Below are positions 14,612-38,297 of a stretch of 38,297 nt of DNA, one piece after another. Every line of letters begins with the position of its first letter. Within the stretch, counting starts at the first letter, position 1. Both the position numbers and the translations under genes were made by a program. The stretch is from Streptomyces prasinopilosus (GTDB lineage: Bacteria > Actinomycetota > Actinomycetes > Streptomycetales > Streptomycetaceae), in the NCBI RefSeq assembly GCF_001419695.1, contig NZ_LIRG01000014.1, positions 1 through 38,297 of the forward strand, read 5' to 3'. The notes beneath the pieces are model-generated. The model was given only the letters and a program-made list of their open reading frames with translations, made no database searches and was not told where the DNA came from.

Positions 14612-14616
14612 CCCCT

Positions 14617-14637: not shown

Positions 14638-14661
14638 CCGCACCCGCAACGGGAGACCACC

Positions 14662-15333: not shown

Positions 15334-15351
15334 CCCCTCAAGGAGAAACCC

Positions 15352-16663: not shown

Positions 16664-16676
16664 CAGGGAGGACGCC

Positions 16677-17617: not shown

Positions 17618-17619
17618 CC

Positions 17620-17775: not shown

Positions 17776-17790
17776 CTTGAGGGAGGGCCC

Positions 17791-18213: not shown

Positions 18214-18623
18214 CCTCCCCCGCGCCGATGCTGCCGGTCCAGTCCGCCATCTACGCCCGCCTCAAGGGCGACGCCACCCTGACCGGCCTGATCAAGGGCG
18301 TCTACGACTACGTCCCCGAGGACGCCGCCTACCCGTTCGTCGTGATCGGCGAGGCGCTCGAGACGCCGGACAACCGGCACGGCGGCTTCGGCCGGGAGAC
18401 CGTCATCACCCTGCACTCGTGGTCCCGCTATCAGGGCTACGCGCAGGTCCTGCGGATCGGCGCCCGGGTCACGGCGCTGCTGGACCACCAGCCGCTCACC
18501 ATCACGGGCCTGAACCACATCGTGACCCGCTTCGAGTTCTCCCAGACGCTGACCGACCCGGAACCGCCGGGCGACATCCGGCACCTGGTGCAGCGCTACC
18601 GCGTGGTCACCGAGCAGCACTGA
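18210..18623 (+). CDS. Tail terminator, DUF3168-like
   Basis: The protein has 137 residues with a GTG start. VQSAIYARLKGDATLTGLIKGVYDYVPEDAAYPFVVIGE, then ETVITLHSWSRYQGYAQVL and ITRFEFSQTLTDPE-type strands, match the DUF3168 tail-terminator pattern. It caps the polymerised tail tube and binds the head connector. Gene order (gp10-like, DUF3168, tail tube) is standard. Confidence 0.88.
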   Translation: MTSPAPMLPVQSAIYARLKGDATLTGLIKGVYDYVPEDAAYPFVVIGEALETPDNRHGGFGRETVITLHSWSRYQGYAQVLRIGARVTALLDHQPLTITGLNHIVTRFEFSQTLTDPEPPGDIRHLVQRYRVVTEQH

Positions 18624-18641
18624 CCCCACCCCGCCCCCCTT

Positions 18642-18666
18642 GCCCCGGACCTCACCGGCCCGGGGC
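18642..18666 (+). terminator. Hairpin before the tail tube gene
   Basis: GCCCCGG (18642-18648) and CCGGGGC (18660-18666) are followed by TTCCTC, in the 71-bp gap before the tail tube gene. It may be an attenuator or 5'-stabilising hairpin. Confidence 0.45.
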
Positions 18667-18694
18667 TTCCTCATGCACAGACAGGAGTAGGCCC

Positions 18695-19117
18695 ATGGCC
18701 GGTATGGATGGCTTCGGCGTCCAGCTCAAGCGCGGCGACGGCGCAGAGCCCGAGGTGTTCACGAAGATCGCCGACGTGACGTCGCTGAACCCCCCCAACA
18801 TCTCGCGGGAGACGCTCGACGTCACCAGCCACGACAGCCCCAACGGCTGGATGCAGTTCCTCGGCAGCCTGAAGGACCCGGGCGAGGTGTCCGCGGACAT
18901 CAACTACCAGCCCGACAAGCACGACCTGCTGGTGGGCGACTTCGAGGACGCCGCGCCCCGCAACTACCAGATCGTCTTCCCCGACGAGGACGCCACGACG
19001 TGGGAGTTCCCGGCGATCCTCACCGGCTTCGAGCCGGAGGCGCCCTACGACGACAAGGCGTCCGCGTCGCTGACGTGGAAGGTCTCCGGCAAGCCGACCA
19101 TCACGACGGGGGCGTAG
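18695..19117 (+). CDS. Major tail (tube) protein
   Basis: The protein has 140 residues; ACAGGAG lies 8 bases before the ATG. Conserved features are ADVTSLNPPNISRETLDVTSHDSPNGWMQFLGSLKDPGEV, the signature of TP901-1-like tail tube subunits, then FPDEDATTWEFPAILTGFEPEAPYDDKASASLTWKVSGKP. It polymerises into the tail tube. At 140 residues it is compact and lacks an added Ig-like domain. Confidence 0.93.
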   Translation: MAGMDGFGVQLKRGDGAEPEVFTKIADVTSLNPPNISRETLDVTSHDSPNGWMQFLGSLKDPGEVSADINYQPDKHDLLVGDFEDAAPRNYQIVFPDEDATTWEFPAILTGFEPEAPYDDKASASLTWKVSGKPTITTGA

Positions 19118-19121
19118 GCGC

Positions 19122-19523
19122 ATGGCACTGCTGAGCAAGGACCAGATCACCACCGCCGACGACCGGGCGTGGGAGGACGTGCCGGTGCCCGAGTGGGGCG
19201 GCACCGTCCGGCTGCTGGGCATGTCCGGCACCGAACGCAACGCCTACCAGTCCTCCCTGGTGGTCCTCGGGCCGAACGGCTCGGTGCAGAAGATGAACAT
19301 GGCCGACCAGCTCGCCAAGCTGGTCGCCAAGTGCCTGGTCGGCGAGGACTTCGAGCGGCTGTTCACCGACAAGGAGGTGAAGGCCCTCGGGGCGAAGAAC
19401 GGCGCCGTCCTCGAGCGGCTCGGCACGGTCTGCCAGCGGCTGTCCGGGCTCCGCAAGGAGGACGTGGAGGACGCGGCGGGAAAATCCGAGCCGACCCCGA
19501 GCGACGCTTCTACCACCGACTAG
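19122..19523 (+). CDS. Tail assembly chaperone, short form (gpG-like)
   Basis: The protein has 133 residues; its ATG is 4 bases after the tail tube stop. It has a helical body with LLGMSGTERNAYQSSLV and a charged C-terminus ending DASTTD. It lies between tail tube and tape measure and contains a -1 slippery heptamer near its end, as in the lambda G/GT arrangement. It guides tape measure folding and is not in the virion. Confidence 0.9.
   Translation: MALLSKDQITTADDRAWEDVPVPEWGGTVRLLGMSGTERNAYQSSLVVLGPNGSVQKMNMADQLAKLVAKCLVGEDFERLFTDKEVKALGAKNGAVLERLGTVCQRLSGLRKEDVEDAAGKSEPTPSDASTTD
19478..19484 (+). promoter_or_regulatory. -1 programmed ribosomal frameshift site
   Basis: GGGAAAA is read as G GGA AAA in frame, a perfect X XXY YYZ heptamer. 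A -1 slip continues in an open frame to 19852. It is the only A-run in a very GC-rich stretch, which supports selection for slippage. Confidence 0.85.
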
Positions 19524-19852
19524 CGCTCGAACTGGGCTGCACCGTGCGCGAGCTGCTGGCGCGCACGACGTCGGCGGAACTGACGGAGTGGATGGCGTAT
19601 GAGCGGGTCACCGGCCCGCTCGGGCCCGAGCGCCTGGACCTGCTGCACGGCATCCTGTCGGCCACCGTCGCCAACGCGGCCCGCGGCAAGGGCAAGAAGG
19701 CCACCCCGAAGGACTTCATCCCCGAGTGGGACCAGGGCCCCAAGGGGCCGATGGAGTGGCGGCAGATGCTCACCGCGGTGAAGGCCTACAACCGTCGCAT
19801 CGGCGGCACCGACTCAACGACCGAGGGGGGTGCCGCAGATGGCGACGCTTGA
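19484..19852 (+). CDS. Frameshift extension of the tail assembly chaperone (gpGT-like T part)
   Basis: The long form is 19122-19484 joined to 19484-19852 in the -1 frame, about 243 residues. The extension reads IRADPERRFYHRLALELGCTVRELLARTT, then TEWMAYERVTGPLGPERLDLLHGIL, as in T-domains of actinophage chaperones. It has no start of its own. Its end overlaps the tape measure start by 14 bases. Confidence 0.87.
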   Translation: MRADPERRFYHRLALELGCTVRELLARTTSAELTEWMAYERVTGPLGPERLDLLHGILSATVANAARGKGKKATPKDFIPEWDQGPKGPMEWRQMLTAVKAYNRRIGGTDSTTEGGAADGDA

Positions 19853-21806
19853 AGAAGTGCTGGTCGCGATCGGCATCAACACCGATGACCTGACCGCCGG
19901 CGCCGACGGCGCGGCCAACGAGGTCGAATCCAGCCTGGGCGGCATCCAGACCGCCGCCGCCGGCGTGGCCGTGGGCGGTCTGTTCATGGCGGGCCTGCAG
20001 TCCGCGATGGACATGCAGGCCACCCAGGCCCAGCTGCAGACGCAGTTCGGGTACACCGAGCAGGAGGCCGCCCGCGCGGGCGACGCGGCCGGGCGCGTGT
20101 ACTCGGCCGGCTTCGGCCAGTCCGTGGAGGAGGTCGGGCAGGCCATCGGCTCGGTCGCCGAGGCGATGGGCGGGCTCGGGGAGGTCTCGGACGCCGAACT
20201 CGACCAGATGTCCAAGCACGCCATGGTGCTCGCGGAGACCCTGCAGGTCGACGTCGCCGACGCCGCCGGGGCAGCCGGGAACCTGATCAAGAACGGGCTG
20301 GCGGCCGACGGCCAGGAGGCGTTCGACGTCCTCACCCGGGCGGCACAGACGCTGCCCCGGGAGATGGTCGCGGACATCCCCGCCGTCGTGCAGGAGTACG
20401 GCAAGCACTTCCAGCGCCTGGGCCTCGACGGCAAGCAGGCGTTCGGAATGATGTCGCAGTACGTGCAGGCCGGCGGCCGGGACATCGACCAGGCCGCCGA
20501 CGTCATCCACGAGTTCGCCCGCATCACCTCCGAGGAGACCGACCGGGCGGCGGAGGCCTTCAAGGCACTCAACCTGCCCGCCAAGCAGATGCTGGACGAC
20601 ATCGGCAAGGGCGGTCCCGAAGCCGAGCAGGCCCTGGGCAAGACCCTGGAGGCGCTGCGCGGGGTGAAGGACCCGGCCGAACAGTCCGCGCTCGCCGTCG
20701 AGCTGTTCGGCGACATGGCCGGTGAGGGTGCCGACGCGCTGTGGGCGATGAACCCGGCGACCGCGGCCGCCGCGTCCGGCATGGACCAGGCCGCCGGCGC
20801 CGCGGACAAGGCGACGGCGGCGGCCGCCGCCTCGCAGTCCCTGTCGGCGATCTGGCGGACCATGGCCACGACCCTGGGGGAGATGCTGCTGCCGGTCCTG
20901 CAGCCGCTGGCGAAGTTCATGAGCGAGAACCCCGCCCTGGTGAAGATCCTGGCGGTGGCGCTGCTGCTGATGGCCGCCGCGATCGGCATTGCGGTGATCG
21001 CACAGTGGGCGTGGAACACCGCCCTGTGGGCGTTCCCGGGCACGTGGATCATCGCCGCGATCATCGCCCTGATCGCCATCATCGTGCTGATCGTCGTCTA
21101 CTGGGACCAGATCGTCGCGGCCACCGTGTCCGCCTGGAACTGGATCACTGACGCGGTCGGTGCGGGTGTCGGCTGGGTCTCGGGCCTGATCTCGCAGTTC
21201 ACCGCCTGGATCTCCAGCAAGTGGAACCAGGCGTGGAGCTGGGTGGAGAGCAAGACCCAGAGCGCGGTCTCAGCCATCCTCGGTGTGATCGGCTGGCTGT
21301 CGGCCATCCCCGGCCGGGTCGCCGGCTGGTTCGGCCAGGTCGTCTCCTTCGTGTCCGGCCTGCCGGGCCGGATCTCGCGTGCCGCGTCGGGCATGTGGGA
21401 CGGCATCCTGCGCTCCTTCCGTAGCGCCGTGAACAGCATCATCAGCGGCTGGAACAGCCTGTCCTTCACGATCGGCGGCGGCTCCATCATGGGCGTCGAC
21501 ATCCCATCGGTCACCCTGTCCACCCCGAACATCCCCATGCTCGCCCAGGGCGGCGTCACCACCGGTCCCACCTTCGCGATGATCGGTGAGGGCCGGGAGC
21601 AGGAAGCGGTCATGCCGCTGTCCAAGCTGGACGGCATGCTCCGCTCGGTCGCCGGCGCGGTGCGCCGCACCGGTGGGGACGGCCCGCAGGCCATCCCGGT
21701 CCGGATCGAGCTCGCCGGGCCCGAGGACATGAAGCGGCTGGTGCGCAGCATCGTGCAGACCGGCTCCCGCGGTGGCGACGTCCAGGGCTTCTTCGGCACC
21801 CCGTAA
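19839..21806 (+). CDS. Tape measure protein
   Basis: The protein has 655 residues; the ATG at 19839 has GAGGGGGG upstream (a GTG at 19830 is also possible). Long Ala-rich helices fill the first 330 residues. Hydrophobic spans follow at about 365-430 (KILAVALLLMAAAIGIAVIAQ and WIIAAIIALIAIIVLIVVYW), then Trp-rich helical repeats and a C-terminal region (GGVTTGPTFAMIGEGREQEAVMPLSKLDGML) typical of tape measures. Its length would set a fairly short tail. The membrane spans are thought to help DNA pass the membrane. Confidence 0.95.
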   Translation: MATLEEVLVAIGINTDDLTAGADGAANEVESSLGGIQTAAAGVAVGGLFMAGLQSAMDMQATQAQLQTQFGYTEQEAARAGDAAGRVYSAGFGQSVEEVGQAIGSVAEAMGGLGEVSDAELDQMSKHAMVLAETLQVDVADAAGAAGNLIKNGLAADGQEAFDVLTRAAQTLPREMVADIPAVVQEYGKHFQRLGLDGKQAFGMMSQYVQAGGRDIDQAADVIHEFARITSEETDRAAEAFKALNLPAKQMLDDIGKGGPEAEQALGKTLEALRGVKDPAEQSALAVELFGDMAGEGADALWAMNPATAAAASGMDQAAGAADKATAAAAASQSLSAIWRTMATTLGEMLLPVLQPLAKFMSENPALVKILAVALLLMAAAIGIAVIAQWAWNTALWAFPGTWIIAAIIALIAIIVLIVVYWDQIVAATVSAWNWITDAVGAGVGWVSGLISQFTAWISSKWNQAWSWVESKTQSAVSAILGVIGWLSAIPGRVAGWFGQVVSFVSGLPGRISRAASGMWDGILRSFRSAVNSIISGWNSLSFTIGGGSIMGVDIPSVTLSTPNIPMLAQGGVTTGPTFAMIGEGREQEAVMPLSKLDGMLRSVAGAVRRTGGDGPQAIPVRIELAGPEDMKRLVRSIVQTGSRGGDVQGFFGTP

Positions 21807-21819
21807 GGAGACACACCCG

Positions 21820-24800
21820 ATGGCGTTCCCCGACACCCCGCTGGACTCCCTCCTGGAGATCCTCGTGGACGGGCAGTGGCTCCCGGTCCCGACGTACAAC
21901 CGTGACCGGGTCCAGATCGAGACGGGCCGCCGCGAGGGGGCCACCGTCACCGACCCCGGCAGCCTGTCCGTCACCATCAACAACCGCAACGGCCGCTTCT
22001 CCCCGAGGAACGCGGAGTCGGACCTGTACGGGCGGATCGGCCGCAACACCCGCTGCCGGCTGTCCGTGGCCGACACCCAGTCCTTCCTCGAGCTGGACGG
22101 TGTCACGGTGGGCACCGCATCCACCCCCGACCACGCCGCCCTCGACATCACCGGCGATCTGGATTTGAGGTGGGAGGGCGAGGCCGACTGGTACGCGCCC
22201 GGCGCCCAGATGCTGATCGGCAAGTGGGGCGATCCCGGGGACCGCAGCTACCACATGCGGCTGGACGGCGGCTCGCTGTGGGTGGGCGCCACCATCAACG
22301 GGACCACCGGCCACGTCGCGGGCCGGGTCCTGCCCCCGCTGCCCCGCCGGGCCGCCGTCCGCGTCACCATCGACGTCAACGACGGGTCGGGCAACAGTGT
22401 CTTCCGCATGTACTGGGCGCCCGGCATCGACGGACCGTGGACGCAGATCAGCGACCCCGTCATCCTGCCCTCGCTGACCATCTTCCCGGTCGCCGCCCCG
22501 CTGACCATCTCGCCCCGGCAGGTCGACGAGTTCGGCACCCGGCTGCCGGTGACGGGCCGCTGCTACCGGGCCCAGGTCCGAGCCGGCATCAACGGCACGA
22601 TCGTCGCCGACCCCGACTTCACCACCCTGCCCGCCGGCACCCTGGCGTTCACCGACGCGCCAGGCCGCCCCTGGACCGTCACCGCTGCCGGGGCCGTCCG
22701 CGACCGCGCGGACCTGTTCGTCGGGGAGATCTCCGAGTGGCCCCAGGAATGGACCCCGGACGGCGCGGATGCCTGGGTCCCCGTCCAGGCCGCGGGCATC
22801 CTGCGCCGCCTGGGCCAGGGCCGCAAAGCCCTGCAGTCGACGCTGCGCCGCCGCATCCCCTCCTACCGGCCGCTGGCGTACTGGCCGATGGAGGAGGGCG
22901 CCAACGCGCGGTACGCGTACTCGCCGATCGAGCGGGTGCCGCGCCTGCAGCTCACCAACGCGAACTGGGCGGCGGCCGACAGCCTGCCCAGCTCCGAACC
23001 CCTGCCCACCCTGAAGGGCACCGCGGGCAACCTGTCCCACCTGACCGGCCTCGTCTTCAACCGCTCGTTCGTGAGTCTGCCGGCGTGGAGTGTGCAGTTC
23101 GTGTACCGGCTGGACGAGCCGAACGAGTCCCTGAACACGTTCCTGCGGATCCTGTCCATGGGCAGCGTGCGGCAGTGGTACATCCAGTTCCGCGCTGATC
23201 TCACCCGCATCATCGGCCGCGACCAGGACGGCGAGGACCTCTTCTCCAGGGACATCGCCACCGGCAGCTACCTGTACGGGCAGTGGGTGCGGGTGCGCTT
23301 CCAGGTCACCCAGGAGGGCGGCAACGTCCGCTGGCGCATCGTGTGGACCGACCTCCTGGGTGACAGCTTCAACTACAGCGAGACCTTCGCCGGGAACGCG
23401 GGCCGGCCCACGGGCGTCACCTCGCCCCCCGGCGGTTACGCGCAGGCCCTCAACGGCATGGCGATCGGCCACATCGGAGTCTTCGACGTCGAGAGCAGCC
23501 CGGCCTACTTCGGCGCCATCGACGCCTGGACGGGCGAGAGCGCCTGGGAGCGGATGTACCGGCTGGCCGGTGAGGAAGGCCTGCGGGTGGCCCGGCTGCC
23601 GGGCCCGGAGACCCCCCAGCGGGTGGGGCCGCAGACCGTGGACACCCTCCTGAACCTGCTGCAGGCCGCCGCCGACGCCGACGGCGGGATGCTCCTGGAG
23701 GACCGCCGCCGCCCCGGGCTGCTGTTTAGGGAGCGTTCCAGCCTGTACAACCAGACGCCGAAGCTGTTGCTGTCCTACGCCGGGGCGCCGGGCCTGGCCG
23801 CGCCGCTGCGGCCGGTCGACGACGACGCCGCGATCCGCAACGACCGCACCGTCAAACGCGACGGCGGGAGCGAGGGGCGCGCGGTCCTCGAGACCGGCCC
23901 CCTGTCCGTGGCCGAACCCCCGGCCGGGCTCGGCCGCTACGACGACTCGGTGACGCTGTCGCTGCACGACGACGCGCAGGCGGAGCCGATCGCCCACTGG
24001 CGGCTGCACCTGGGCACCCACGACGGGCCCCGCTACCCGCAGATCCGCATCATGCTCCACAAGGCGCCCGCCCTGATCCCGGCCGCCCTCACCCTGACCG
24101 AGGGCGACCTGGTCCGCGTCACCGGCCTGCCCAAGTGGGCCGGGCACGGCGACGTCGACCTGATCGTGGAGGGCATCCGGCACGAGGCGACGCTGACCAC
24201 GTGGGACCTCATCCTCACCTGCTCACCCGGCCGGCCGTGGCGCGTGGGCACGGTCGGCGCGGCGTCGGCGCGGGCGGACACCGACGGCAGTCAGCTGGTC
24301 ACCCCGGTGGGCGCGGACGCCACCATCCTGACCGTGCAGGCCACCGCCGGCCCCGCCTGGATCACCTCGGCCGAGTTCCCGTCCGAGTTCCCGTTCGACG
24401 TCCGCGCGGGAGGCGAGGTGATGACCGTGACCGCCGTCGCAGACGCCGTGACGGACACCTTCGGGCGGACCGCGGCGGGCGGCTGGGGCACGGCGAACAC
24501 GGGGCAGCCGTGGACGCTCACGGGCGGCACCGCCACGGACTACGCGGTCGGCTCCGGCGTCGGCACCCACACCATGACCACCGTCAACATCTCCCGCCGG
24601 ACCCTCATGCCCCAGCCGGGCCGGGACTTCGATCTTCAGGTCGACATGGCCACCAGCGCCCTGTCCACGGGCGGCCACCAGTCCGGCGGGCCGATGGCCC
24701 GCGCGACGGACGGCAACAACCTGTACCAGGCGAGGCTGGAAGCCACCCCGGCCCAGGGACTCGTGCTGACCCTGCGCAAGCGCGTGGGCGGCACGGAGAC

Positions 24801-25155
24801 CGTGCTGGCGACCGCCACCCTGGCCCTCACCCACACGGCCGGCACGTTCTACCGGATCCGCTTCCAGGGCCAGGGCTCCACCCTGCAGGCCCGCGCCTGG
24901 CGGGCGGCCGACCCCGACCCGGGCGGCTGGCAGGTCGCTGCCGTCGACGGGGATCTGACGGCGGCCGGCGAGATGGGGGTCCGCTCGCTCATCGCCACGA
25001 GCAACACCAACACCAGCCCCGTCATCCGCTACGACAACTTCCGGCTGCTCAACCCGCAGTGGTTCACCGTGACCCGCTCGGTCAACGGCGTGAGGAAACC
25101 GCATCCGGCCGGGACGGCCGTGGGGCTCGCCTCCCCGGCCGTCGTCGCCCTGTAG
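21820..25155 (+). CDS. Large minor tail protein
   Basis: The protein has 1,111 residues; AAGGAG precedes the ATG by 10 bases. The N-terminus (LDSLLEILVDGQWLPVPTYNRDRVQIETGRREGATVTDPGSLSVTINNRNGRFSPRN) is a distal-tail/baseplate-type opening seen in Streptomyces phages. It is followed by beta-rich, LamG-like stretches (about 130-260 and 370-590), a hub-like middle (EEGLRVARLPG ... VDTLLNLLQAAADADGG) and a second jelly-roll-like region (DTFGRTAAGGWGTANTGQPW to the end). It probably combines hub and adhesion functions at the tail tip. Separate Dit and Tal genes are not seen. Confidence 0.88.
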   Translation: MAFPDTPLDSLLEILVDGQWLPVPTYNRDRVQIETGRREGATVTDPGSLSVTINNRNGRFSPRNAESDLYGRIGRNTRCRLSVADTQSFLELDGVTVGTASTPDHAALDITGDLDLRWEGEADWYAPGAQMLIGKWGDPGDRSYHMRLDGGSLWVGATINGTTGHVAGRVLPPLPRRAAVRVTIDVNDGSGNSVFRMYWAPGIDGPWTQISDPVILPSLTIFPVAAPLTISPRQVDEFGTRLPVTGRCYRAQVRAGINGTIVADPDFTTLPAGTLAFTDAPGRPWTVTAAGAVRDRADLFVGEISEWPQEWTPDGADAWVPVQAAGILRRLGQGRKALQSTLRRRIPSYRPLAYWPMEEGANARYAYSPIERVPRLQLTNANWAAADSLPSSEPLPTLKGTAGNLSHLTGLVFNRSFVSLPAWSVQFVYRLDEPNESLNTFLRILSMGSVRQWYIQFRADLTRIIGRDQDGEDLFSRDIATGSYLYGQWVRVRFQVTQEGGNVRWRIVWTDLLGDSFNYSETFAGNAGRPTGVTSPPGGYAQALNGMAIGHIGVFDVESSPAYFGAIDAWTGESAWERMYRLAGEEGLRVARLPGPETPQRVGPQTVDTLLNLLQAAADADGGMLLEDRRRPGLLFRERSSLYNQTPKLLLSYAGAPGLAAPLRPVDDDAAIRNDRTVKRDGGSEGRAVLETGPLSVAEPPAGLGRYDDSVTLSLHDDAQAEPIAHWRLHLGTHDGPRYPQIRIMLHKAPALIPAALTLTEGDLVRVTGLPKWAGHGDVDLIVEGIRHEATLTTWDLILTCSPGRPWRVGTVGAASARADTDGSQLVTPVGADATILTVQATAGPAWITSAEFPSEFPFDVRAGGEVMTVTAVADAVTDTFGRTAAGGWGTANTGQPWTLTGGTATDYAVGSGVGTHTMTTVNISRRTLMPQPGRDFDLQVDMATSALSTGGHQSGGPMARATDGNNLYQARLEATPAQGLVLTLRKRVGGTETVLATATLALTHTAGTFYRIRFQGQGSTLQARAWRAADPDPGGWQVAAVDGDLTAAGEMGVRSLIATSNTNTSPVIRYDNFRLLNPQWFTVTRSVNGVRKPHPAGTAVGLASPAVVAL

Positions 25156-25619: not shown

Positions 25620-25928
25620 GTGGGCGAGATATTCGGAATCAACCCTGTGCAGGGGGGAGCCGCCGCGCTGCTGTGCGTAGCGGTGCTGTTCGTTCTGACC
25701 GGCCGTCTGGTCCCACGCAACTACATCGAGGACGCCCGCGCGGACCGGGACTACTGGCGGGCCGCCCACAGCGCGGAAGTCTCCGCCCGGCAGGCGGAGC
25801 GGGACCTGACCAACGAGCTGCTGGAGGTCGCCCGGACCGCCGACCACGTGCTGGCATCCCTGCCCCGGGCGGCGGACGGACGGGAGGAGGTGGCCCCCAG
25901 GAATGCGGTGGATCACCCTTCCCCGTAA
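25620..25928 (+). CDS. Membrane protein with coiled coil
   Basis: The protein has 102 residues with a GTG start; GGGAGG is 6 bases upstream. One hydrophobic segment (GGAAALLCVAVLFVLTGRLV, about 12-31) precedes a charged coiled coil (YIEDARADRDYWRAAHSAEVSARQAERDLTNELLEVA). The layout resembles actinophage membrane proteins in the holin region. Its end overlaps the next gene by 26 bases. Confidence 0.75.
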   Translation: MGEIFGINPVQGGAAALLCVAVLFVLTGRLVPRNYIEDARADRDYWRAAHSAEVSARQAERDLTNELLEVARTADHVLASLPRAADGREEVAPRNAVDHPSP

Positions 25929-26130
25929 GCGCCGCAAGGAGCACGCCCGGGAGGCACGAGAAGCGGCCCGGCAGGCCCTGTCGGAGGCCCAAGAGGCACA
26001 GCGCGAGATCGAAGAGGAACGCCGGCCCATGGTGCTGGCCATCGTCCACCGGCTGCGGGTGGCACGCGAGGAGAACCATTTCCAGGAGCGGATCGAGGCC
26101 GCTTACGCAGCACGCAGAGGAGCGGTGTGA
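25903..26130 (+). CDS. 75-residue charged helical protein
   Basis: It starts MRWITLPRKRRKEHAREAREAARQ; almost entirely a Glu/Arg/Ala-rich helix (ALSEAQEAQREIEEERRPM) ending ARRGAV. It has no span or catalytic motif. Overlaps with both neighbours indicate translational coupling between two membrane proteins, perhaps forming a complex with them. Function unknown. Confidence 0.7.
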   Translation: MRWITLPRKRRKEHAREAREAARQALSEAQEAQREIEEERRPMVLAIVHRLRVAREENHFQERIEAAYAARRGAV

Positions 26131-26456
26131 TGGACGGACTGAGCATCGACCAGTGGGTGAACGCGACCGCGTCGATGCTGGCCTTTGCGGCCTGTGCCGG
26201 ATTCGCGGCGGTCTACCACTGGCGGGCCACCTGGTGGCGCACCGAGGTGGGCCGCAACCTGATGGGCTTCGCCGTCACCGTGGGCCTGCTGTGCCTGTAC
26301 ACGGTGCTGGTGACGCTCTGGCCGGACGGCTGTTTCGTCGTCATCGCCCGGTGGATGCGCACGGTGCTGCTGCTGGCCGTGGCCGCGCTGATGGTGCAGC
26401 GCACCCGGCTGTTCATCCGGGCCCAGCAGGACCACCGGCACCGAACCGGAGTGTGA
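26127..26456 (+). CDS. Three-span membrane protein, holin candidate
   Basis: The protein has 109 residues (GTG at 26127 overlapping the previous stop, or ATG at 26130). Three hydrophobic segments are visible: SMLAFAACAGFAAVYHW, LMGFAVTVGLLCLYTVLVTLW and VLLLAVAALMV, with a basic C-terminus (RAQQDHRHRTGV). Three spans, about 110 residues and a charged tail fit a class I holin, at the end of the virion operon. A strong terminator follows. Confidence 0.7.
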   Translation: MMDGLSIDQWVNATASMLAFAACAGFAAVYHWRATWWRTEVGRNLMGFAVTVGLLCLYTVLVTLWPDGCFVVIARWMRTVLLLAVAALMVQRTRLFIRAQQDHRHRTGV

Positions 26457-28418: not shown

Positions 28419-28529
28419 GACCCTGTACAGCCCTGCTTGCGGAGGGGGTTGAACGGTCAGGGCTGTACAGGGTCGCCCCCCCGACCCTGTACAGCCCTGA
28501 CCTGCGCTTTTGCAGGGCCGTACAGGGTC
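28419..28529. repeat. Four 17-bp repeats, candidate clt / TraB recognition site
   Basis: GACCCTGTACAGCCCTG occurs at 28419-28435 (plus), 28458-28474 (minus), 28483-28499 (plus) and 28513-28529 (minus, one change, CCGTAC for CTGTAC), so the four form two head-to-head pairs. The array ends 10 bases from the traB stop. Streptomyces plasmid clt loci are noncoding repeat arrays next to tra that the FtsK-like hexamer recognises (for pSVH1 by 8-bp repeats beginning GACCC). Position and repeat style match; binding is inferred. Confidence 0.7.
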
Positions 28530-28539
28530 ACGGCAGGGA

Positions 28540-30729
28540 TCAAGTGCGGGCATTCCGGGCAGCTTCGGCGGCCTCCTGAAGCGCCGCCAGAGTCCAGCCG
28601 GAGGGGCGGGTGTTGTCCGGGCCGGCCACGCGGGCGGTCTCCAGCTCCGCCCCTGTCCCGGCCGCCTGCGCTTTGACCGCCTTGCCCACCCGGGCGATCC
28701 AGGCACTGTCCGTCTCACCGTCCCGACGGGCGTACCGGTCGGCGTCGATACCGGCCAGCAGCGGCGCCGCCTCGGCCACCGTCAGACAGCCGCGCCCGGT
28801 TCCGGCCGCCGCGGTGGCGAGGTGGTCCAGGACCGTGCCGCGGACGATGCCGCCGTTGCCCTTCGCCCCGCCGGCCACCGAGGACGCCCCGGTGAGCCGC
28901 AGCAGCGCGTCTTCCACCGGGTCGGCGCAGTGCCCGGGGAGGGTGCCGGCGGTCCGGCGCAGTTCCTGCCCGATGGCGATGGGCGTGCGGATCTCGCCGG
29001 TGGATTCGTCGATGAACAGGGAGCGGACGGCGATCATGCCGGTGTCGGGGGTGGTCAGCCATCCGCGGCCGCGGGTCGTCTTCGCGTTGGCGATCTTGCT
29101 GGAGTCGAAGCCGTCGCCCGCCTTGCCCTTGCCGAGGATGGTGTTGGAGGCGTCGGCGCTCTCCGTGCGCATCGCCATCCGCCCGGCACAGTTGCCGCGC
29201 AGCCGCGAGGGCACGATGGCCACCTCGGGGTACTGCGTGGCGAGGACCACGACGATGCCGACCGCCGCGCCCACCGCGGCGAGCTGCGCCAGATACTCGA
29301 CGATCTCCTCCGCGTACTCCTTGGACGGGCCGTCCGGGGCGGTGTACGTCGCCAGTTCGTCGACCACGACCAGCTCGATCCCGCCGACCTTCTCGATCAG
29401 GTCCTCGGACAGCTTGGACAGACCCAGGTCCACCAGGATCTCGGTGCGCCGGTTCATCTCCTCGACCTCGACCCGCAGGAAGTCCAGCAGCCGGGCGGGG
29501 TTGCGGCGGACGAACGTGTGCAGGACGGGGGCGTGCGGCACGTACTCGCCGGTGCCTTTTCCGTCGAACAGCCGGATCCGCACCCGCGGGTCCAGCAGCG
29601 CGCCGGCCAGGATGTTGGCGACGCCCATGCCCTTGCCGGAGCGGGTGGCCCCGCCGAACAGCAGGGAGTAGTCCGAGATGGTGACGGCGACGATCTGGCC
29701 GCGCTTGTCGAAGGCGAGCGGGATGCCGTCCTTCCAGGTGTTGAGCGGCTCGCGGCGGTCCAGCAGCGGGGACCGCACCGTGCGGTCGAACGGGTCGCGC
29801 ATGGACGCCCACAGAGTCATGCGGGCCTCCCCGCCGACCTGCCGGATGTCGAGCTGGGCGCGGTCGATACCGAGCGCGGCGGCGAGCTCCACCTCACGGG
29901 AGCGGGCCTTGTCGACGGTGGCGTCCGGCAGTTCCAGCATCACCGTCCAGGCGTCCACGCCGTCGCTGACCACGGGGGTGAGCAGCCGCAGTTCCTTGCC
30001 CTCCCCGATGACCTTCGCCTCGGTGAAGGCGCGGTTCAGCATCGTCTCGGTGAGCGGGTCGCCGTCGGCGAGGCTGCGCCGGTCGGGGTCCCAGGCCGTG
30101 TCGGTGAGGGGCTTGCGGCCGATCCACGCGGCGACGGACAGGGTGGTGAAGACGCCGGCGGCCAGCCCGAGGCCGCCGAACTCCACCAGGGCGGCGGTGT
30201 CGACCAGCAGCGGCGTGCCGTAGGCGCCCGCTCCGCGCAGGAGACGGCCGTTGCGCACCTTGCGGCGGGCCTGTTCGTGGAGCTGGACGGCGGCCATGGC
30301 GGCGGTCTGCGCGCGGTCGGCGGCCTGGCGGGCCTTGTCCCGCTGGCCGGGCATCATCGTGTACCGGGCGCGGCGGGCGGCCTCGCGGGCCTCGCGGGTG
30401 GCGGTGTGCGCCTGGTGGGCGGCGGCCTGGACGTTGACGCCGTGGAAGCCGACGACCCATTCGTGGACGCGGCGGGTTCCGCGGCTGATCTGGGCGGCGT
30501 GGCCCTGCGGGGTGCGCTGCCGGGAGACCCAGCGGCGGCCGGCCCGCTTGGTGCGGCGGGCGGCGCGGCGGGCGGCGGACTTCCGGCCCTCGCCGGTACG
30601 GGTCCAGGCGGGGATCAGGGGCAGGTCGCCGGCGAGGTCCTCGGGGAGGTCCGGCACGAGGTGCAGCGGCGGCTTGGTGAGGTCGACGACCGGGGCGGTG
30701 GTGTCGGTGGCGCGGATGACGTCGGACAT
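28540..30729 (-). CDS. traB: FtsK/SpoIIIE-like conjugative DNA translocase TraB
   Basis: The protein has 729 residues. The basic N-terminus (KSAARRAARRTKRAGRRW) leads to one or two membrane segments near 178-203 (VEFGGLGLAAGVFTTLSVAAWI), then the RecA-like motor with Walker A GGATRSGKG (359-367), Walker B LVVVDE (453-458) and the VVVLATQYPEVAIVPSRLRGN block. The C-terminus (about 650-729, VAEAAPLLAG ... WTLAALQEAAEAARNA) is the place of the winged helix that reads clt repeats. Streptomyces TraB alone moves double-stranded plasmid DNA between hyphae. A strong hairpin lies in its leader and clt-like repeats lie just past its stop. Confidence 0.93.
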   Translation of the reverse strand: MSDVIRATDTTAPVVDLTKPPLHLVPDLPEDLAGDLPLIPAWTRTGEGRKSAARRAARRTKRAGRRWVSRQRTPQGHAAQISRGTRRVHEWVVGFHGVNVQAAAHQAHTATREAREAARRARYTMMPGQRDKARQAADRAQTAAMAAVQLHEQARRKVRNGRLLRGAGAYGTPLLVDTAALVEFGGLGLAAGVFTTLSVAAWIGRKPLTDTAWDPDRRSLADGDPLTETMLNRAFTEAKVIGEGKELRLLTPVVSDGVDAWTVMLELPDATVDKARSREVELAAALGIDRAQLDIRQVGGEARMTLWASMRDPFDRTVRSPLLDRREPLNTWKDGIPLAFDKRGQIVAVTISDYSLLFGGATRSGKGMGVANILAGALLDPRVRIRLFDGKGTGEYVPHAPVLHTFVRRNPARLLDFLRVEVEEMNRRTEILVDLGLSKLSEDLIEKVGGIELVVVDELATYTAPDGPSKEYAEEIVEYLAQLAAVGAAVGIVVVLATQYPEVAIVPSRLRGNCAGRMAMRTESADASNTILGKGKAGDGFDSSKIANAKTTRGRGWLTTPDTGMIAVRSLFIDESTGEIRTPIAIGQELRRTAGTLPGHCADPVEDALLRLTGASSVAGGAKGNGGIVRGTVLDHLATAAAGTGRGCLTVAEAAPLLAGIDADRYARRDGETDSAWIARVGKAVKAQAAGTGAELETARVAGPDNTRPSGWTLAALQEAAEAARNART

Positions 30730-30825: not shown

Positions 30826-32028
30826 CTAGTCGTTGCTGCGCTCGCTCTGCACCGCGTCCCGGACGCGCTTCGCGTAGACCTTGCTGCGGCCGAGGAGCTT
30901 GGCGATGGCGGGGGTGGAGAACTGTTCTGCGGGGACCGCATCGGCGAGCTTCCGCGCGGCGTCCAGATCGGTCTCGGAGAGGGGCTCCACGGCGTCCCTG
31001 CGGGGCCTGCGGGAAAGTGCGCGCTTCCCAATCCCCCCAAGGGTTGTAGCGCCCTCAGAAGGGCCCCCAGAGGGCTTCTTCGGGATGACCCCGGCGGACC
31101 CTCCGTCGCCCTCGTCGAGGACCTCCGACAGCCAGCCGTCGACCCCGTCGTGGAACTGCCGACGCAGGGCCACCGCGGACAGCGATTCGGCGACGGCTTC
31201 GGCCGCCTGGAACTTGCGGGTCACGGCGGCGGTGCGGGAGACGTCCATCGCGTGCTCGTCCATCCACGCGGTGCGCCAGGCGTCCTCTTCGGTGACCGTG
31301 CCGTAGGGGTGCGCGCGCAGGATGTCGTCGGCGCGCTCGGCAACCTCGGGGAACCTCTTCCGCCGGGCCCGGGAGTGCTTCGCCCGGCGGCGGTCCTCGG
31401 CACGCTGGGCCCGGGTGCGGGTCGCGGTGTGCGTGGTGGCGACGCGCCACCACAGGAACACGCCGACCAGTGAGGCGACCGCGAACACGATCGCCTTGAG
31501 AACCGCGTCCGATCCGCCTTCGATGACGTGCCCGTAGCCGTTCAGAGCGGCGGCGACGAACGCCGACACCCACGTCCACGTCATGAGGCTCGCGTGCGGC
31601 TTCTTGGCGGTCATCGCGGCCGACGTGAGCGTGGCCAAGGTGAGCGTCAGGCCCTCGAGCATGAGGGGGACGCCGATGCTGTACGCGCCGAACCCTGCGG
31701 CGTGAGCGGCTTCGTACTGGCCGCCCCACGCCATGGCCATGGACGCGGCGACCACGGGGATACCGGCGATCGGCATGTGTGCGGTGACCGCGGCCAGGGC
31801 CCGCTTACGCGCCGCGGCCTGCTGCTGCTTGCGCAGCGCCTTGGCCTTGGCCTTCTCCGCGTCGCGCTGCCGCTTCAGCTTGGCCTCGGCCTCAGCGTTC
31901 TTGCGGGTCTCCTCCGCGCGGAGCCGTTCGGCCTCGAGGCGGGCCTCGATCTCCAGGCGCTTGTCCTCGCGGTCCTGCTCACGGTCGGCGGCCTTGTCCA
32001 GGCGCCGCTGCTCGGTCCAGGTGCTCAT
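30826..32028 (-). CDS. DUF2637-type membrane spread protein (SpdB2-like)
   Basis: The protein has 400 residues. Residues 1-75 are a highly charged coiled coil (REDKRLEIEARLEAERLRAEETRKNAEAEAKLKRQR). Four hydrophobic segments follow at about 85-200 (MPIAGIPVVAASMAMAW, FGAYSIGVPLMLEGLTLTLATL, WTWVSAFVAAALNGYGHVI and AIVFAVASLVGVFLWW), the DUF2637 pattern. The cytoplasmic C-terminus ends in an HTH-like block (FSTPAIAKLLGRSKVYAKRVRDAV). Such proteins sit immediately upstream of traB in Streptomyces plasmids and AICEs and take part in intramycelial spread. The C-terminal HTH suggests it also binds DNA. Confidence 0.85.
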   Translation of the reverse strand: MSTWTEQRRLDKAADREQDREDKRLEIEARLEAERLRAEETRKNAEAEAKLKRQRDAEKAKAKALRKQQQAAARKRALAAVTAHMPIAGIPVVAASMAMAWGGQYEAAHAAGFGAYSIGVPLMLEGLTLTLATLTSAAMTAKKPHASLMTWTWVSAFVAAALNGYGHVIEGGSDAVLKAIVFAVASLVGVFLWWRVATTHTATRTRAQRAEDRRRAKHSRARRKRFPEVAERADDILRAHPYGTVTEEDAWRTAWMDEHAMDVSRTAAVTRKFQAAEAVAESLSAVALRRQFHDGVDGWLSEVLDEGDGGSAGVIPKKPSGGPSEGATTLGGIGKRALSRRPRRDAVEPLSETDLDAARKLADAVPAEQFSTPAIAKLLGRSKVYAKRVRDAVQSERSND

Positions 32029-33320: not shown

Positions 33321-33652
33321 CAGGTCCTCGATTCGGTGGTGGTGGTCGGGAAGGAGTCGGTGGGGACCATCCGCAGCACCGGGGCCGCGGGGGGCTGGGA
33401 CTGGGCGGTCTGGTGGCGGAGCTGCTCACGGACGAGGTCCGTGGAGCGGGCGCGGGCGGCGTCGACCAGTTCGGTGAAGGCGAGGAGCCGCAGGGACAGG
33501 GAGTCCAGGGCCTCGCCGGTCTCGGGGTCGGTGAACGTGATTCGCACCGCGGGGAAGTCGTCGTCGTGGCGGGTCACACCGTGCAGGGAGGCCAGCGCCT
33601 GGCGCAGGTTCCGCATCTGGCGGCGGATCAGCACGTCCCGGAAGGTGGTCAT
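33320..33652 (-). CDS. 110-residue hypothetical protein
   Basis: ATG at 33652 overlaps the preceding stop by 4 bases. It opens MTTFRDVLIRRQMRNLRQAL, a basic amphipathic helix, then a strand-rich stretch (AVRITFTDPETGEALDSLSLRLLAF), a second helix (ELVDAARARSTDLVREQLRHQ) and a Pro/Thr-rich tail. No motif recognised. It is coupled to both neighbours in the transfer operon. Confidence 0.7.
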   Translation of the reverse strand: MTTFRDVLIRRQMRNLRQALASLHGVTRHDDDFPAVRITFTDPETGEALDSLSLRLLAFTELVDAARARSTDLVREQLRHQTAQSQPPAAPVLRMVPTDSFPTTTTESRT

Positions 33653-34578
33653 CGGGCCTCCCCCTTCAGCGCGCGCCGCTCCTTGGAGGTGAGGGCTCCG
33701 GCCACGCCGTGCTGCTGCTTGCCGTTCGGCTTCAGCGCGAAGTCCCGGCACGGCTCCAGGAACGGGCACTCGCCGCACAGTTCCTTGGCGACGGCGATCC
33801 GGCGGCGGGCCAGGCCCTGATCCATCGCGCCGGCCGTGTCGTCCGCGTTGTAGAACAGGTCGGCCAGGCCGGTGCAGGCGGGCCGGGCGCCGTCCCCGCA
33901 CAGCTGGCCCTCGCGGGCGGCGAGCTGCACGGCGTGCACGGTGGCGGCGTCGCTCAGGGAGTAGAGGTGTGCCTTCTGGCCGTCGACCTTGTGCGCGGGC
34001 AGGTTGTGCAGCCGCGCCCAGCGGGCGAGCGTCGCCAGCGGCACCTTGTGCCCGGACTGGGCGAAGAACTCGGTGAGGAAGGCGAGGGAGCGAAGGTCCG
34101 CGGGGTAGCCCTCGGAGCGGCGCACGCCGGACGGGGTACCGGCCGTGGTGTAGCCGAGGTCGCGGTAGGTCCAGCGGCGGCGCAGCCCCGGGCGGGGCGC
34201 GCAGTGACGGTTCACGCACTGGGCCTTGCCCTTGAGCGGGACCAGGGTGAAGCAGCCGCAGGCCGGGCAGGCGCGGGTGCGGACCGTTTCGGTGGAGCCG
34301 GTCAGGTCCTCGGTCTCCATGACGAAGGCGTCCCGGATGGCGGCCGCCTCCCGGCGGGCGAGGGGCGTGCCCTCGCGGGCCAGACGCTCGGCGCGGGCGA
34401 TGACGTCCAGTCCCTCGGTGCGCTTGTCGAGAACCTTGGTGTTCACGGTCGCCGGTGCCTCCGTTCGTGTCGCGGTGCGGGTCGCGGTCAGCGGGTCCAC
34501 CCGCCGGCCGGTCGACCCGGCGGTGGTCCAGTAGGTCTGGGAGAGAGCAGTGATCCACTGCTCGGGCGTTGCGGGCAT
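33649..34578 (-). CDS. Zinc-ribbon / HTH / WhiB-like fusion protein
   Basis: The protein has 309 residues. Residues 104-126 hold CPACGC and CVNRHC, a zinc ribbon. Residues about 178-210 (VPLATLARWARLHNLPAHKVDGQKAHLYSLSD) look like a MerR/HTH reading head. Residues 230-302 match the WhiB domain: C235, then C268-x2-C271-x5-C277 (four iron-sulphur ligands) and GVAGALTSKERR in place of the usual GVWGG turn. Free-standing WhiB proteins are about 80-130 residues; this fusion with two DNA-binding-type modules is unusual. It probably regulates transfer or lysogeny genes in response to redox or NO, by analogy with Wbl proteins. It is the second gene of the transfer operon. Confidence 0.8.
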   Translation of the reverse strand: MPATPEQWITALSQTYWTTAGSTGRRVDPLTATRTATRTEAPATVNTKVLDKRTEGLDVIARAERLAREGTPLARREAAAIRDAFVMETEDLTGSTETVRTRACPACGCFTLVPLKGKAQCVNRHCAPRPGLRRRWTYRDLGYTTAGTPSGVRRSEGYPADLRSLAFLTEFFAQSGHKVPLATLARWARLHNLPAHKVDGQKAHLYSLSDAATVHAVQLAAREGQLCGDGARPACTGLADLFYNADDTAGAMDQGLARRRIAVAKELCGECPFLEPCRDFALKPNGKQQHGVAGALTSKERRALKGEAR

Positions 34579-35277: not shown

Positions 35278-36033
35278 ATGGCCACCTACCGAGACGTGGC
35301 AGACGAGCTCCGCCGCCGCATCGAACTCGAACAGGACGAGTACCGACCCGGCGATGAGCTGCCGACCATCGAGAGGCTGCAAGACCAGTTCAGTCTGTCG
35401 AAGCAGACGATCAGGGCAGCAATCCGCGTACTGGCAGACGAGGGCTTGGTAAGCACCGGTCGCGGCCGCCCTGCCCGGGTACGAGACAACCAGCGAATCC
35501 GCATTCCGTTCAGCAGGTACGGCGGCGTCATGGCTCCCGGTGGCACGGCTGGTCCGTGGGAGTCGGCCTGCGCCGACCAGGGCCTGGACGGGCGGATGAA
35601 GACAGTCACCGTGGACACACGCCCGATCGGGCAGGCGGACGCTGCTCTCTTGGGCGTGCCGCCGGGATCGGATGTCGTCTACCGGCAGCGCCATGCCTGC
35701 GTTGGTGACGACGTTCTGCAAGTTCAGCAGGCCTGGTACCCGCGCCCGGTCGCCCTTCAGGCTGGGTTGACCACCGCACGGAAGATCGAGGGTGGAATCT
35801 ACGGTGCCCTCGCCGCGTCAGGCATGGCTCCGTCCGAGCTGGACGAGACGATCCGCGGGCGCATGCCGACGACGGAAGAGGCAGAGCTGCTCCACACCGG
35901 CACGGGCGTTCCCCTGCTGACCGTCGAACGGGTCACGCGTGGTGCGGACGGAAAGCCGCTTGAGCTGCTGCGCGTCACGGCGCCGGCCGACCGCATCGAG
36001 TTCGTCTACAACAACCTTCCGCTATCCCAGTAA
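35278..36033 (+). CDS. GntR/HutC-family regulator (KorSA/TraR-like)
   Basis: The protein has 251 residues; GAGGAGGGG precedes the ATG. Residues 1-70 are the GntR winged helix (YRDVADELRRRI ... LPTIERLQDQFSLSKQTIRAAIRVLADEGLVSTGRGR). Residues about 100-245 are a UTRA ligand domain with LGVPPGSDVVYRQRHACVGDDVLQVQQAWYP and the ending PADRIEFVYNNL. GntR regulators of this type (KorSA of pSAM2, TraR of pSN22/pSVH1-like plasmids) silence tra genes and autoregulate. It is divergent from the transfer operon across one dyad, so the same role is very likely. Confidence 0.92.
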   Translation: MATYRDVADELRRRIELEQDEYRPGDELPTIERLQDQFSLSKQTIRAAIRVLADEGLVSTGRGRPARVRDNQRIRIPFSRYGGVMAPGGTAGPWESACADQGLDGRMKTVTVDTRPIGQADAALLGVPPGSDVVYRQRHACVGDDVLQVQQAWYPRPVALQAGLTTARKIEGGIYGALAASGMAPSELDETIRGRMPTTEEAELLHTGTGVPLLTVERVTRGADGKPLELLRVTAPADRIEFVYNNLPLSQ

Positions 36034-36587: not shown

Positions 36588-36944
36588 ATGGCCCAGAAGG
36601 CCGCAGATACCCGGAACGCCCTGGCGTTCGGCATGGTCGCACCGTCGGTGATGTGCGACCCGAATCACACCCCGCTCGCCCGCGTGCTGTACGCCATCCT
36701 GGCGTCGTACGCCCGCGGCCCGGAGCGCATCGCCGCCCGCCTGGTGCCGAACCGGCACCGGCTCGCCGCGATGCTCGGCACCGACAGCGACGGCCTGGAC
36801 GCCGCCCTCGCGGAACTCGAGACGGCCGGCATCGTCACCGCGACCTGGCGCTCGGACCGCCGCGGCCGCGTCTCCGTCATGTACCAGCTGCACGACGCCG
36901 CGCTCCTCTTCGGCGGGCAGCCCTGCCACGGGGGGCACCAGTGA
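36588..36944 (+). CDS. Small winged-helix replication accessory protein
   Basis: The protein has 118 residues; AAGGAAG lies 8 bases before the ATG at 36588 (a longer frame from 36465 would run through the dyads). HTPLARVLYAILASYARGPERIAARLVPNRHRLAAMLGTDSDGLDAALAELETAGIVTATWRSD is a winged helix of the replication-initiator type (HTH plus wing). It overlaps the large rep gene by 4 bases. Paired small/large rep genes are common on Streptomyces plasmids. Likely a DNA-binding partner or regulator of Rep. Confidence 0.75.
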   Translation: MAQKAADTRNALAFGMVAPSVMCDPNHTPLARVLYAILASYARGPERIAARLVPNRHRLAAMLGTDSDGLDAALAELETAGIVTATWRSDRRGRVSVMYQLHDAALLFGGQPCHGGHQ

Positions 36945-38297
36945 CCACGCAGCCCGTCCCTAACCACTCGGACGACTCCGTCCTGATCGAGCTGTACGGG
37001 CCCGAGAACGACGGCTGGTACACCTCTCGCATCTCCGACTGGATCGGCGTCTGCGATGACCTCCGAGACCCGGACGCGCGCGGGTACCTGGTGCTGCGCG
37101 CTCTGGTCTACGAGAAGTTCAAGAAGCCCGTCAGGAACCTGACGCTCGCCATCCTGTGTGAGCTGATCCCCGGGCCGAACGGCAAGCCCAGCAGTCAAGG
37201 CCGTGTCCGCGGCATCCTCAAGGCGCTGTCCGACGTCGGGCTGATCTCCACGCCCGAGGGCGGCCCGATCAAGACGTCATCCCGTCCCGGCGCCGCAGGT
37301 AAGCCGCTTCGCATCCGCATCAACGACATGCCCAAGGAGGGCTATGCCGGGTGGCGGAACGTTGAGGCCAAGCTCAAGTGGTTGCAGGCCGGAAAGCCCG
37401 ATCTGGGGGCGGGTCAGAATTCTGACCCGGCTGACCAGGAGGATGAGGGCCCGGAGGGGGCGGGTCAGAATTCTGACCCGTTGGGTCAGAATTCTGACCC
37501 GCATCCCCGGGGCGACGTGCAGGAACCCGAACACCCACTGGTTCCTTCTCTTGGTGCGGACGATGGCCCTGACGGGCGTAGCCCGGGTGAACGCCGTAGG
37601 CCATCTACCGGTAGTAGTGAGCGCGCGAGCGAAAGCGGCTGCGCCGCGTCCGGCAAAGACAGCCCCTCGCCCTCATCCCAGGAAGCCCCCCGCGCCACCG
37701 CATCCAAGAGCCGGGTCCTCACCGACGAACAGCGGCAGGCGAGGGACGCGATCCTTCCGCTGCTGCCGCCGCACCTCCTCGAGGCCCTCGGCAACGTGGT
37801 CCCGCAGAACGTCTGCCAGGCCATGGTCGACGCCCTTGCTGCTGGCCTGCCCCGGGAGCGCACGCCGCAGCAGCTGGTGGACTACCGGGTGCTGCCGCGC
37901 TGGAACGGCTACTGGGCGTCGAAGTTCTACGCCGGGGAGTTGACCCCGGAGGTGAACGGCAAGAAGCGTCCGCCGTTCGGGCCGCTGCTTCAGATGCTCG
38001 AGGACACCGACGAGTGCAGGAACCTGACGTGCGAGGACCGGCACGACTTCGTCCTGGGCGACGACTGCCGGAACTGCGCGATGCGCAAGGACGACCGGAA
38101 GGCCGACCAGAAGCGGGAGCGCCGCGAGGCCCAGGAGGAAGCCGACCGGCAGGCCCGTCGGGGCGAGGAACAAGCAGCAGCAGAGGCAGGCACGGCTGCG
38201 GCCGGGACCGGTGACGCCCCTGCGGGCCCGATGCCGACCCCCCGCAACGAGACGATCGTCGTCCACAGCCCCAAGGCCGACGAGTGGTGGGACTGCG
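36941..38297 (+). CDS. Replication initiator-like protein (continues at bases 1-170)
   Basis: GTG start overlapping the previous stop (GTGA); the frame is open to the right edge. With bases 1-170 it makes 508 residues. Residues about 15-120 are a winged-helix domain (VCDDLRDPDARGYLVLRALVYEKF ... QGRVRGILKALSDVGLISTPEGGPI). Residues about 155-190 carry three GQNSDP repeats encoded by three DNA palindromes. A disordered Ser/Pro-rich linker follows, then LTDEQRQARDAILPLLPPHLLEALG, a helical domain, and two zinc sites: C359-x4-C364-x11-C376-x2-C379 and C452-x2-C455-x13-C469-x2-C472, the latter spanning the window junction. No helicase or relaxase motif. Initiator function is inferred from the iterons, domain order and context. 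Confidence 0.8.
   Translation, partial: MTTQPVPNHSDDSVLIELYGPENDGWYTSRISDWIGVCDDLRDPDARGYLVLRALVYEKFKKPVRNLTLAILCELIPGPNGKPSSQGRVRGILKALSDVGLISTPEGGPIKTSSRPGAAGKPLRIRINDMPKEGYAGWRNVEAKLKWLQAGKPDLGAGQNSDPADQEDEGPEGAGQNSDPLGQNSDPHPRGDVQEPEHPLVPSLGADDGPDGRSPGERRRPSTGSSERASESGCAASGKDSPSPSSQEAPRATASKSRVLTDEQRQARDAILPLLPPHLLEALGNVVPQNVCQAMVDALAAGLPRERTPQQLVDYRVLPRWNGYWASKFYAGELTPEVNGKKRPPFGPLLQMLEDTDECRNLTCEDRHDFVLGDDCRNCAMRKDDRKADQKRERREAQEEADRQARRGEEQAAAEAGTAAAGTGDAPAGPMPTPRNETIVVHSPKADEWWDC
37411..37500. repeat. Three identical 18-bp palindromes inside rep (iteron-type origin candidate)
   Basis: GGGTCAGAATTCTGACCC, a perfect palindrome, occurs at 37411-37428, 37462-37479 and 37483-37500. Start-to-start distances are 51 and 21 bp, close to five and two helical turns, so bound proteins would lie on one face. 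Several Streptomyces plasmid origins are iterons inside rep genes. A related 14-base sequence (12 matches) lies at the integrase promoter. Confidence 0.75.

Follow-up and report, generated by a model that had tools for sequence, protein, structure and literature searches.

Contig NZ_LIRG01000014.1 of the draft Streptomyces prasinopilosus assembly GCF_001419695.1 (6.4 Mb in 1058 contigs) was analysed over its entire length of 38,297 bp, hereafter the window. Its sequence very likely represents a complete circular plasmid-phage of the Streptomyces type, opened by the assembler at an arbitrary base within the replication gene rep, which would replicate, segregate, transfer and be packaged in the manner proposed below. 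Circularity itself is almost certain on the sequence evidence, while the nature of the circle, which the first-pass annotation left unstated, is very probably that of a plasmid-phage. The window matches the IMG/VR record IMGVR_UViG_2690316023_000002, likewise of 38,297 bp, and literature searches found no publication naming this very element. The kind is rare and already known from pFP4 and pZL12; of most interest here are the combination of modules and the presence of palindromes inside rep. As a new member, it differs from pFP4 in its replication module, while its transfer module is pSVH1-like and its virion phiSASD1-like. The window is a compact, apparently complete example of a plasmid backbone, a mating system and a virion contained within 38 kb.

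Closure of the contig into a ring

Joining base 38297 to base 1 produces a single open frame, from position 36941 to position 170, of 1527 bases encoding 508 residues and a stop codon, as the first-pass annotation had claimed. Also as described there, the join completes a cysteine cluster, CENC-x13-CGVC, which is intact in the joined Rep (residues 452-472) with half on either side of the junction. Homologues covering the protein end to end were found: the related locus L099 matches residues 16-508 (42% identity) and G074, which has a related terminase (60%), matches residues 151-508, each in one open frame. None of the eight homologues examined carries the two parts as separate proteins. The homologues are single proteins of 475-529 residues, and the rep genes of pSAM1, an S. 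europaeiscabiei plasmid and the NBC_01590 plasmid are each a single open reading frame (ORF) of 475-509 residues.

The best place for the interrupted frame to continue was sought by scoring 73,340 points in the window, on both strands and excluding rep, against the C-termini of seven homologues. The top twelve points all fall at positions 1-40 in the same frame, with position 1 ranking third, one point below the highest score; the rank is given rather than the z-score (2.1) because the distribution of scores is skewed.

Gene order is continuous around the join, in agreement with the circular plasmid pFP4. Homologues of 13 of the 45 called genes are found in pFP4, all of them in one circular order that includes the junction. 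The pFP4 homologues of the genes at 297-629 and 986-1609 come after the replication block and adjoin ParA; in the window, this adjacency to the GntR and replication side exists only if the ends are joined. The closest relative by terminase, G072 (37,798 bp, 91% identity over 550 columns), also appears to be a ring, opened elsewhere on the map, as its tail-terminator gene is split and overlapping: residues 1-91 are encoded at the last bases of the record and residues 50-131 at the first, an overlap of 126 bases as measured in query terms and not letter by letter.

The read-through homologues, the best continuation point and the collinearity with pFP4 all support the earlier proposal of a closed circle rather than a fragment, along with its corollary that absent gene types carry weight. 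Phage primases, replicative helicases and DNA polymerases are without a match among the 47 ORFs scanned against PHROGs (the 45 called genes, joined rep among them, and the ORFs at 36095-36370 and 9519-9875); the longest gap left by these ORFs is 522 bases. This suggests that replication depends on the plasmid Rep and the host. The closed map makes such absences evidence: a phiSASD1-like head and tail have been kept, while the phage replication genes of the virion relatives are not seen. It also illustrates how a ring-shaped element can go unrecognised in a draft assembly when the contig ends lack overlap.

Rep and the palindromes within its gene

Rep, assigned by homology to plasmid records, is 45-47% identical to three plasmid homologues (45% to that of pSAM1) and 27% identical to a fourth; its identity to pZL12.82 is 27% over residues 51-390. 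In an alignment of the joined protein with four plasmid proteins, all four C-terminal cysteines are kept. Across the eight homologues examined, a second cysteine cluster near the C-terminus is found in six, with the exact CxxC-x13-CxxC spacing in pSAM1 only, and the residues PF stand at the C-terminal end of seven. As in pZL12- and pSAM1-like plasmids, which share this Rep family, rep is located after a GntR gene and a small gene, the latter place being taken here by two small ORFs (36095-36370 and 36588-36944). These plasmids are about 90 kb in size, more than twice the length of the window.

Three perfect 18-bp palindromes, GGGTCAGAATTCTGACCC, begin at positions 471, 522 and 543 of the gene. 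Palindromes of a similar sort are present within the gene in seven of the eight homologues, the exception being that of NBC_01310. Two perfect copies are found in each of L089, L099 and L100, two copies with one mismatched pair plus a weaker third in L086 and pSAM1, and one perfect copy plus a weaker one in L101; the palindrome of pZL12 differs in sequence, GTTCCAGGATTCTGGAAC occurring twice alongside a near copy. The spacing between the first and second copies is 51 bp in the window, L086, pSAM1, L089, L099, L100 and pZL12. Where the window unit has A and T, the GGGTC-type relatives have G and C in their first copies, such that the dyad is kept through a paired change, which may have been one ancestral event; the third copies in L086 and pSAM1 break the dyad (A facing C). 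Read in frame, the unit encodes GQNSDP in the window and GRNSDP or GRKSDP in the relatives. Of the two paired changes, one leaves the protein unchanged and the other substitutes a residue, a pattern that favours selection acting on the DNA.

Rep, as a pZL12-type initiator, is predicted to bind the three palindromes in its own gene and to initiate theta replication at them, using the helicase and polymerase of the host; the palindromes and their conservation are observed, and the binding and the origin are extrapolated from them. The balance tips slightly towards a more general interpretation of these sequences, in which the pZL12-type rep gene holds its own origin, with palindromic iterons at fixed coding places, symmetric change, and protein and site co-evolving in one gene. 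If this were true, an origin within rep, on a 38-kb ring open to partition, mating transfer and packaging, would make replicon identity a single swappable cassette of plasmid-phages. The palindromes offer a direct test of where replication starts in pZL12-type plasmids. A precedent for the arrangement is the O initiator gene of phage lambda, which contains short dyad-symmetric iterons and the origin within itself; the likeness is one of plan only, as no relation of Rep to O in sequence or fold was found.

The putative transfer module

The TraB-like translocase of the window is 39% identical to the FtsK-type protein of pSVH1 over 573 columns, and 39% identical to that of pFP11. From published accounts, and as the sole FtsK-type gene in the 11,517 of 12,652 bp examined, the pSVH1 gene would appear to be traB. 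The pSVH1 and pFP11 modules also resemble that of the window in having an SpdB2-like or DUF2637 protein, a GntR regulator and repeats after the translocase gene.

In the window, these repeats form an array of four 17-bp units, GACCCTGTACAGCCCTG, three exact and one with a single change, which was first spotted by eye in the printed sequence and tested afterwards. There are four exact copies of GACCCTGTAC in the window, all within 28419-28529; when one mismatch is allowed, two further places are found, at a tolerance for which shuffled sequences average 1.8. A scan of the intergenic regions for repeated 8-mers gave little or nothing above simple shuffles, and the best count at 28331-28539 was also reached by a shuffle. 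Diverged copies of the array, with two and three mismatches, follow the translocase gene of JCM17656, the product of which is 80% identical to that of the window. The repeat itself differs between systems, with GACCCTGTAC in the window and GACCCGGA in pSVH1, where five of the seven copies in the 11,517 bases examined come after the translocase gene. The clt locus of pWTY27 adjoins tra and overlaps it in part, and clt sites, though variable, have repeats (PMC3583192). The array is a candidate transfer site beside tra.

The 9-mer CTGACCTGC, counted on either strand, occurs twice in the window, at 28389 and 28497, both in the clt-like region; it is also present after the pSVH1 and pFP11 translocase genes, and its reverse complement, GCAGGTCAG, is found in JCM17656. 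A protein with a MUG113/T5orf172 (GIY-YIG-like) domain, encoded at 27659-28330, adjoins the array.

The translocase would recognise the 17-bp array beside its gene and pump double-stranded plasmid into the recipient mycelium, with the SpdB-like protein aiding spread and the divergent GntR protein acting as repressor. The parts are present in the window; the action ascribed to them is modelled on pSVH1-type systems. It is possible, though unlikely, that in a ring otherwise as described the FtsK-like gene serves segregation or the handling of phage DNA rather than conjugation. Distant FtsK-like matches (27-32%) are found in six of ten sibling records, in all six approximately 1.8-2.7 kb upstream of the terminase gene. 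An FtsK gene alone is hence no proof of conjugation, and the neighbourhood and the array weigh more. In these respects the window copy argues for transfer: its block includes SpdB-like and GntR genes, an arrangement shared with pSVH1 and pFP11, the translocases of those plasmids are its closer relatives (39%), and the repeat array follows the gene.

The virion module and its cos site

PHROG and Pfam scans identified a siphovirus head and tail set, making the virion and packaging module near-complete. Its relatives are the phages phiSASD1 and Dubu, with approximately 60% identity in the terminase, approximately 65% in the portal and an identical cos sequence; among the 17 called genes in 10098-25155, 13 are matched by phiSASD1 and 14 by Dubu. 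Unlike the window, both phages have genes for a phage primase and DNA polymerase I; their integrases are also different, and tblastn searches of the two detected nothing like the ParA, Rep or TraB of the window. The endolysin gene precedes the terminase in the window, whereas it follows the tail genes in phiSASD1 and Dubu.

The phiSASD1 record starts with CGCGGGGGAGGGCTC. The same letters arise when the Dubu record is joined end to start, and L014 and L015 begin with those that open the Dubu record. The window contains this 15-mer whole at 9930-9944, 9.9 kb inside the contig. Among 50 loci with 800 bases or more of sequence ahead of the terminase, the record of the window itself being one of them, 34 have the site within two mismatches, compared with none of 100 control stretches. 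On induction, the terminase would cut at cos and one 38.3-kb unit would be packed into a siphovirus particle, to be released by the endolysin; the module and the cos site are present, and productivity is a prediction from the genes alone.

The complete virion module and cos site might suggest that replicating (concatemeric) or linear virion DNA was assembled as the contig, with no maintained plasmid ring, particularly as concatemers could yield the same join and a lytic burst in culture is possible. This is improbable. Mature linear DNA would be expected to end at cos, as 14 of 80 related viral contigs approximately do: of the 80 related loci, 34 end less than 1 kb from the terminase, 14 of them at 520-610 bases before it and 20 elsewhere. 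A contig with cos intact in its interior and its ends in rep is therefore not the mature linear form, and ParA together with a plasmid-type Rep points to maintenance.

In the sibling G067, the best match to the window capsid protein (G067:5677-6513) lies about 20 kb before the main virion module. An exact copy of the cos 15-mer, at L109:7634-7648, is likewise about 20 kb before the main virion module of that sibling. The stray capsid match and cos site may belong to a second phage or a satellite.

Maintenance as a ring or in the chromosome

The seven plasmid ParA proteins that best match that of the window share 73-78% identity with it. Among them, at 73%, is the annotated ParA of the Streptomyces coelicolor A3(2) plasmid record AL645771 (SCP2). 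The neighbouring gene has no Pfam or PHROG match, and its product is called ParB by position alone. ParA and this product would segregate a low-copy ring, and the tyrosine recombinase would either resolve multimers or integrate the ring, roles that are predicted from the homology observed for ParA and the recombinase.

The recombinase, along with an excisionase-like helix-turn-helix (HTH) protein, could also be expected of a chromosomally integrated element, with the contig stopping inside rep at both ends, for instance in a tandem array, which would likewise join end to start. Such an arrangement is very improbable: there is no chromosomal flank on either side, pFP4 and the examined pZL12-type relatives are circular records, and no tRNA gene was detected in the window, although partial attachment sites would escape that search. 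Queries from both ends found no second locus in the host assembly, barring the query's inverted repeat matching itself, with 40 of 185 and 40 of 392 first-look candidates scored; hence no repeat accounts for the contig break at this point.

Several observations weigh against a closed plasmid-phage of the proposed kind. The contig ends share no repeat at any size from 6 to 200 bases, and so provide no proof by overlap. The continuation scan alone fixes the join only to within a few codons, its exactness resting on the CxxC spacing, which is variable among homologues; in a cruder scan that included rep, position 1 ranked 24th of 76,474, the eight top points displayed all falling within rep. Many of the genes in common with pFP4 are virion genes, the order of which is generally conserved, such that the figure of 4e-9 for the collinearity overstates its support. 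Furthermore, pFP4 has no match to the terminase, capsid, Rep, TraB or recombinase of the window, and G072 has none to TraB or Rep. None of the 65 plasmid records matched by tblastn covers at least 80% of the joined protein, while L100 and pZL12.82 lack the second cysteine cluster. Rep has no PHROG family match, and its in-window part no Pfam match; its predicted model is poor (mean predicted local distance difference test score, pLDDT, of 57), with 54 structural matches at E ≤ 10 and none at 0.001, hence no fold is claimed. The TraB alignments with pSVH1 and pFP11 end near residue 600 and do not reach the C-terminal winged helix that would read the clt repeats. Finally, no repressor or holin could be recognised in the window with confidence.

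That the frames at the two ends match by chance, the contig being a fragment of a larger replicon, is the least probable alternative and extremely unlikely: the ends do lack overlap and related plasmid-phages of about 90 kb exist, but the rank in the continuation scan, the end-to-end homologues L099 and G074, the gene order shared with the 40.9-kb pFP4 and the similar size of the probable G072 ring all argue against it.

Comparison with known elements

As episomes, plasmid-phages can propagate and be passed on by conjugation, and they can also form infective particles, according to a paper citing Chen et al. 2012 (PMC4170104). The plan of pFP4 (NC_017833, 40,949 bp, circular) has in common with the closed window a virion module, a tyrosine recombinase, ParA and a replication block, and in both a GntR gene faces a block of WhiB, DUF2637 and FtsK genes. 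By contrast, pFP4 has a primase/polymerase and a DUF927 protein where the window has Rep, and neither its FtsK protein nor its recombinase is clearly similar to the window counterpart. Comparison of pFP4, pZL12, pSAM1 and phiSASD1 reveals the modules occurring in different combinations.

At the nucleotide level, megablast searches with 12000-36900 found no match among phages, and those with 1-12000 and 12000-36900 found only short pieces among plasmids, covering at most 11% of the query. A search of genome contigs with the joined protein returned 29 stretches fitting a pattern, none of which was confirmed. The Samy prophage was set aside as a comparison, its paper describing a span of about 61 kb and an integrase of the serine type.

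Other features of the window and its relatives

Table 1. Coordinates of the features of the window, in order from base 1
Feature	Position	Strand	Basis
remaining part of rep, including the stop codon; contains the second half of the C-terminal zinc ribbon and the final ...PPPF	1..170	+	joined frame
small gene, 36% homologue after the pFP4 replication genes	297..629	+	no PHROG match
small CxxC-containing gene, 56% homologue beside pFP4 ParA	986..1609	+	pFP4 comparison
gene in parB place, 4-base overlap with parA	1695..2663	-	position only
parA, plasmid-type	2660..3592	-	Pfam and PHROG
tyrosine recombinase, integrase or multimer resolvase	5208..6248	+	PHROG/Pfam scans
endolysin (Amidase_2)	7180..8637	+	PHROG/Pfam
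HNH endonuclease immediately before cos	9519..9875	+	family scan
cos-like site CGCGGGGGAGGGCTC, 571 bases before the terminase gene	9930..9944	+	phage-end comparison
terminase large subunit	10501..12144	+	PHROG
portal, head maturation protease, scaffold, major capsid protein	12156..16218	+	PHROG
head-tail connectors, major tail protein, chaperone, tape measure, large tail-region protein (1111 residues)	16220..25155	+	PHROG
pair of short ORFs with a membrane-like segment, tentatively guessed to be holins	25620..26456	+	sequence features
clt-like array of four 17-bp units GACCCTGTACAGCCCTG, alternating in strand and immediately following the stop codon of tra	28419..28529	both	visual, then tested
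TraB-like FtsK/SpoIIIE DNA translocase, Walker A GATRSGK, Walker B LVVVDE	28540..30729	-	PHROG/Pfam and pSVH1 alignment
SpdB2-like spread protein, 34% to pSVH1 SpdB2 over 274 columns	30826..32028	-	alignment
WhiB-domain protein, 76% to pFP4 homologue	33649..34446	-	family scan and pFP4 comparison
GntR/UTRA regulator, upstream of rep, divergent from the transfer block	35278..36033	+	family scan
excisionase/MerR-like HTH protein, 91 residues	36095..36370	+	family scan
ORF of 118 residues, 4-base overlap with rep	36588..36944	+	weak HTH-family matches; phage replication-initiation family, E 5e-4
rep first part, GTG start, 452 codons and the first base of codon 453	36941..38297	+	pZL12/pSAM1-type replication-initiator-like protein
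three perfect 18-bp palindromes GGGTCAGAATTCTGACCC, starts 37411, 37462 and 37483	37411..37500	strandless	candidate Rep-binding iterons/origin

Near parA, the window encodes a stand-alone RapZ C-terminal domain protein (4279-4725); a similar stretch on a Streptomyces plasmid is annotated as RNase adapter RapZ. In G072, near the place of rep, an ORF read from its translation as a DnaB-like helicase is found (L004:1-687). As this record has no match to the window Rep or TraB, even close relatives appear to swap these modules.

The host genome contains a second, distant terminase (31%) at G000:C682:37869-39131, on a 63.8-kb contig, making another prophage likely. In the 26,964-bp record L122 (NZ_CP108534.1), recorded as linear, a recombinase, a primase, a primase/polymerase and an HTH protein are each annotated twice, 13,482 bp apart. 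As this distance is exactly half the length of the record, L122 is probably a doubled copy of a 13.5-kb ring.

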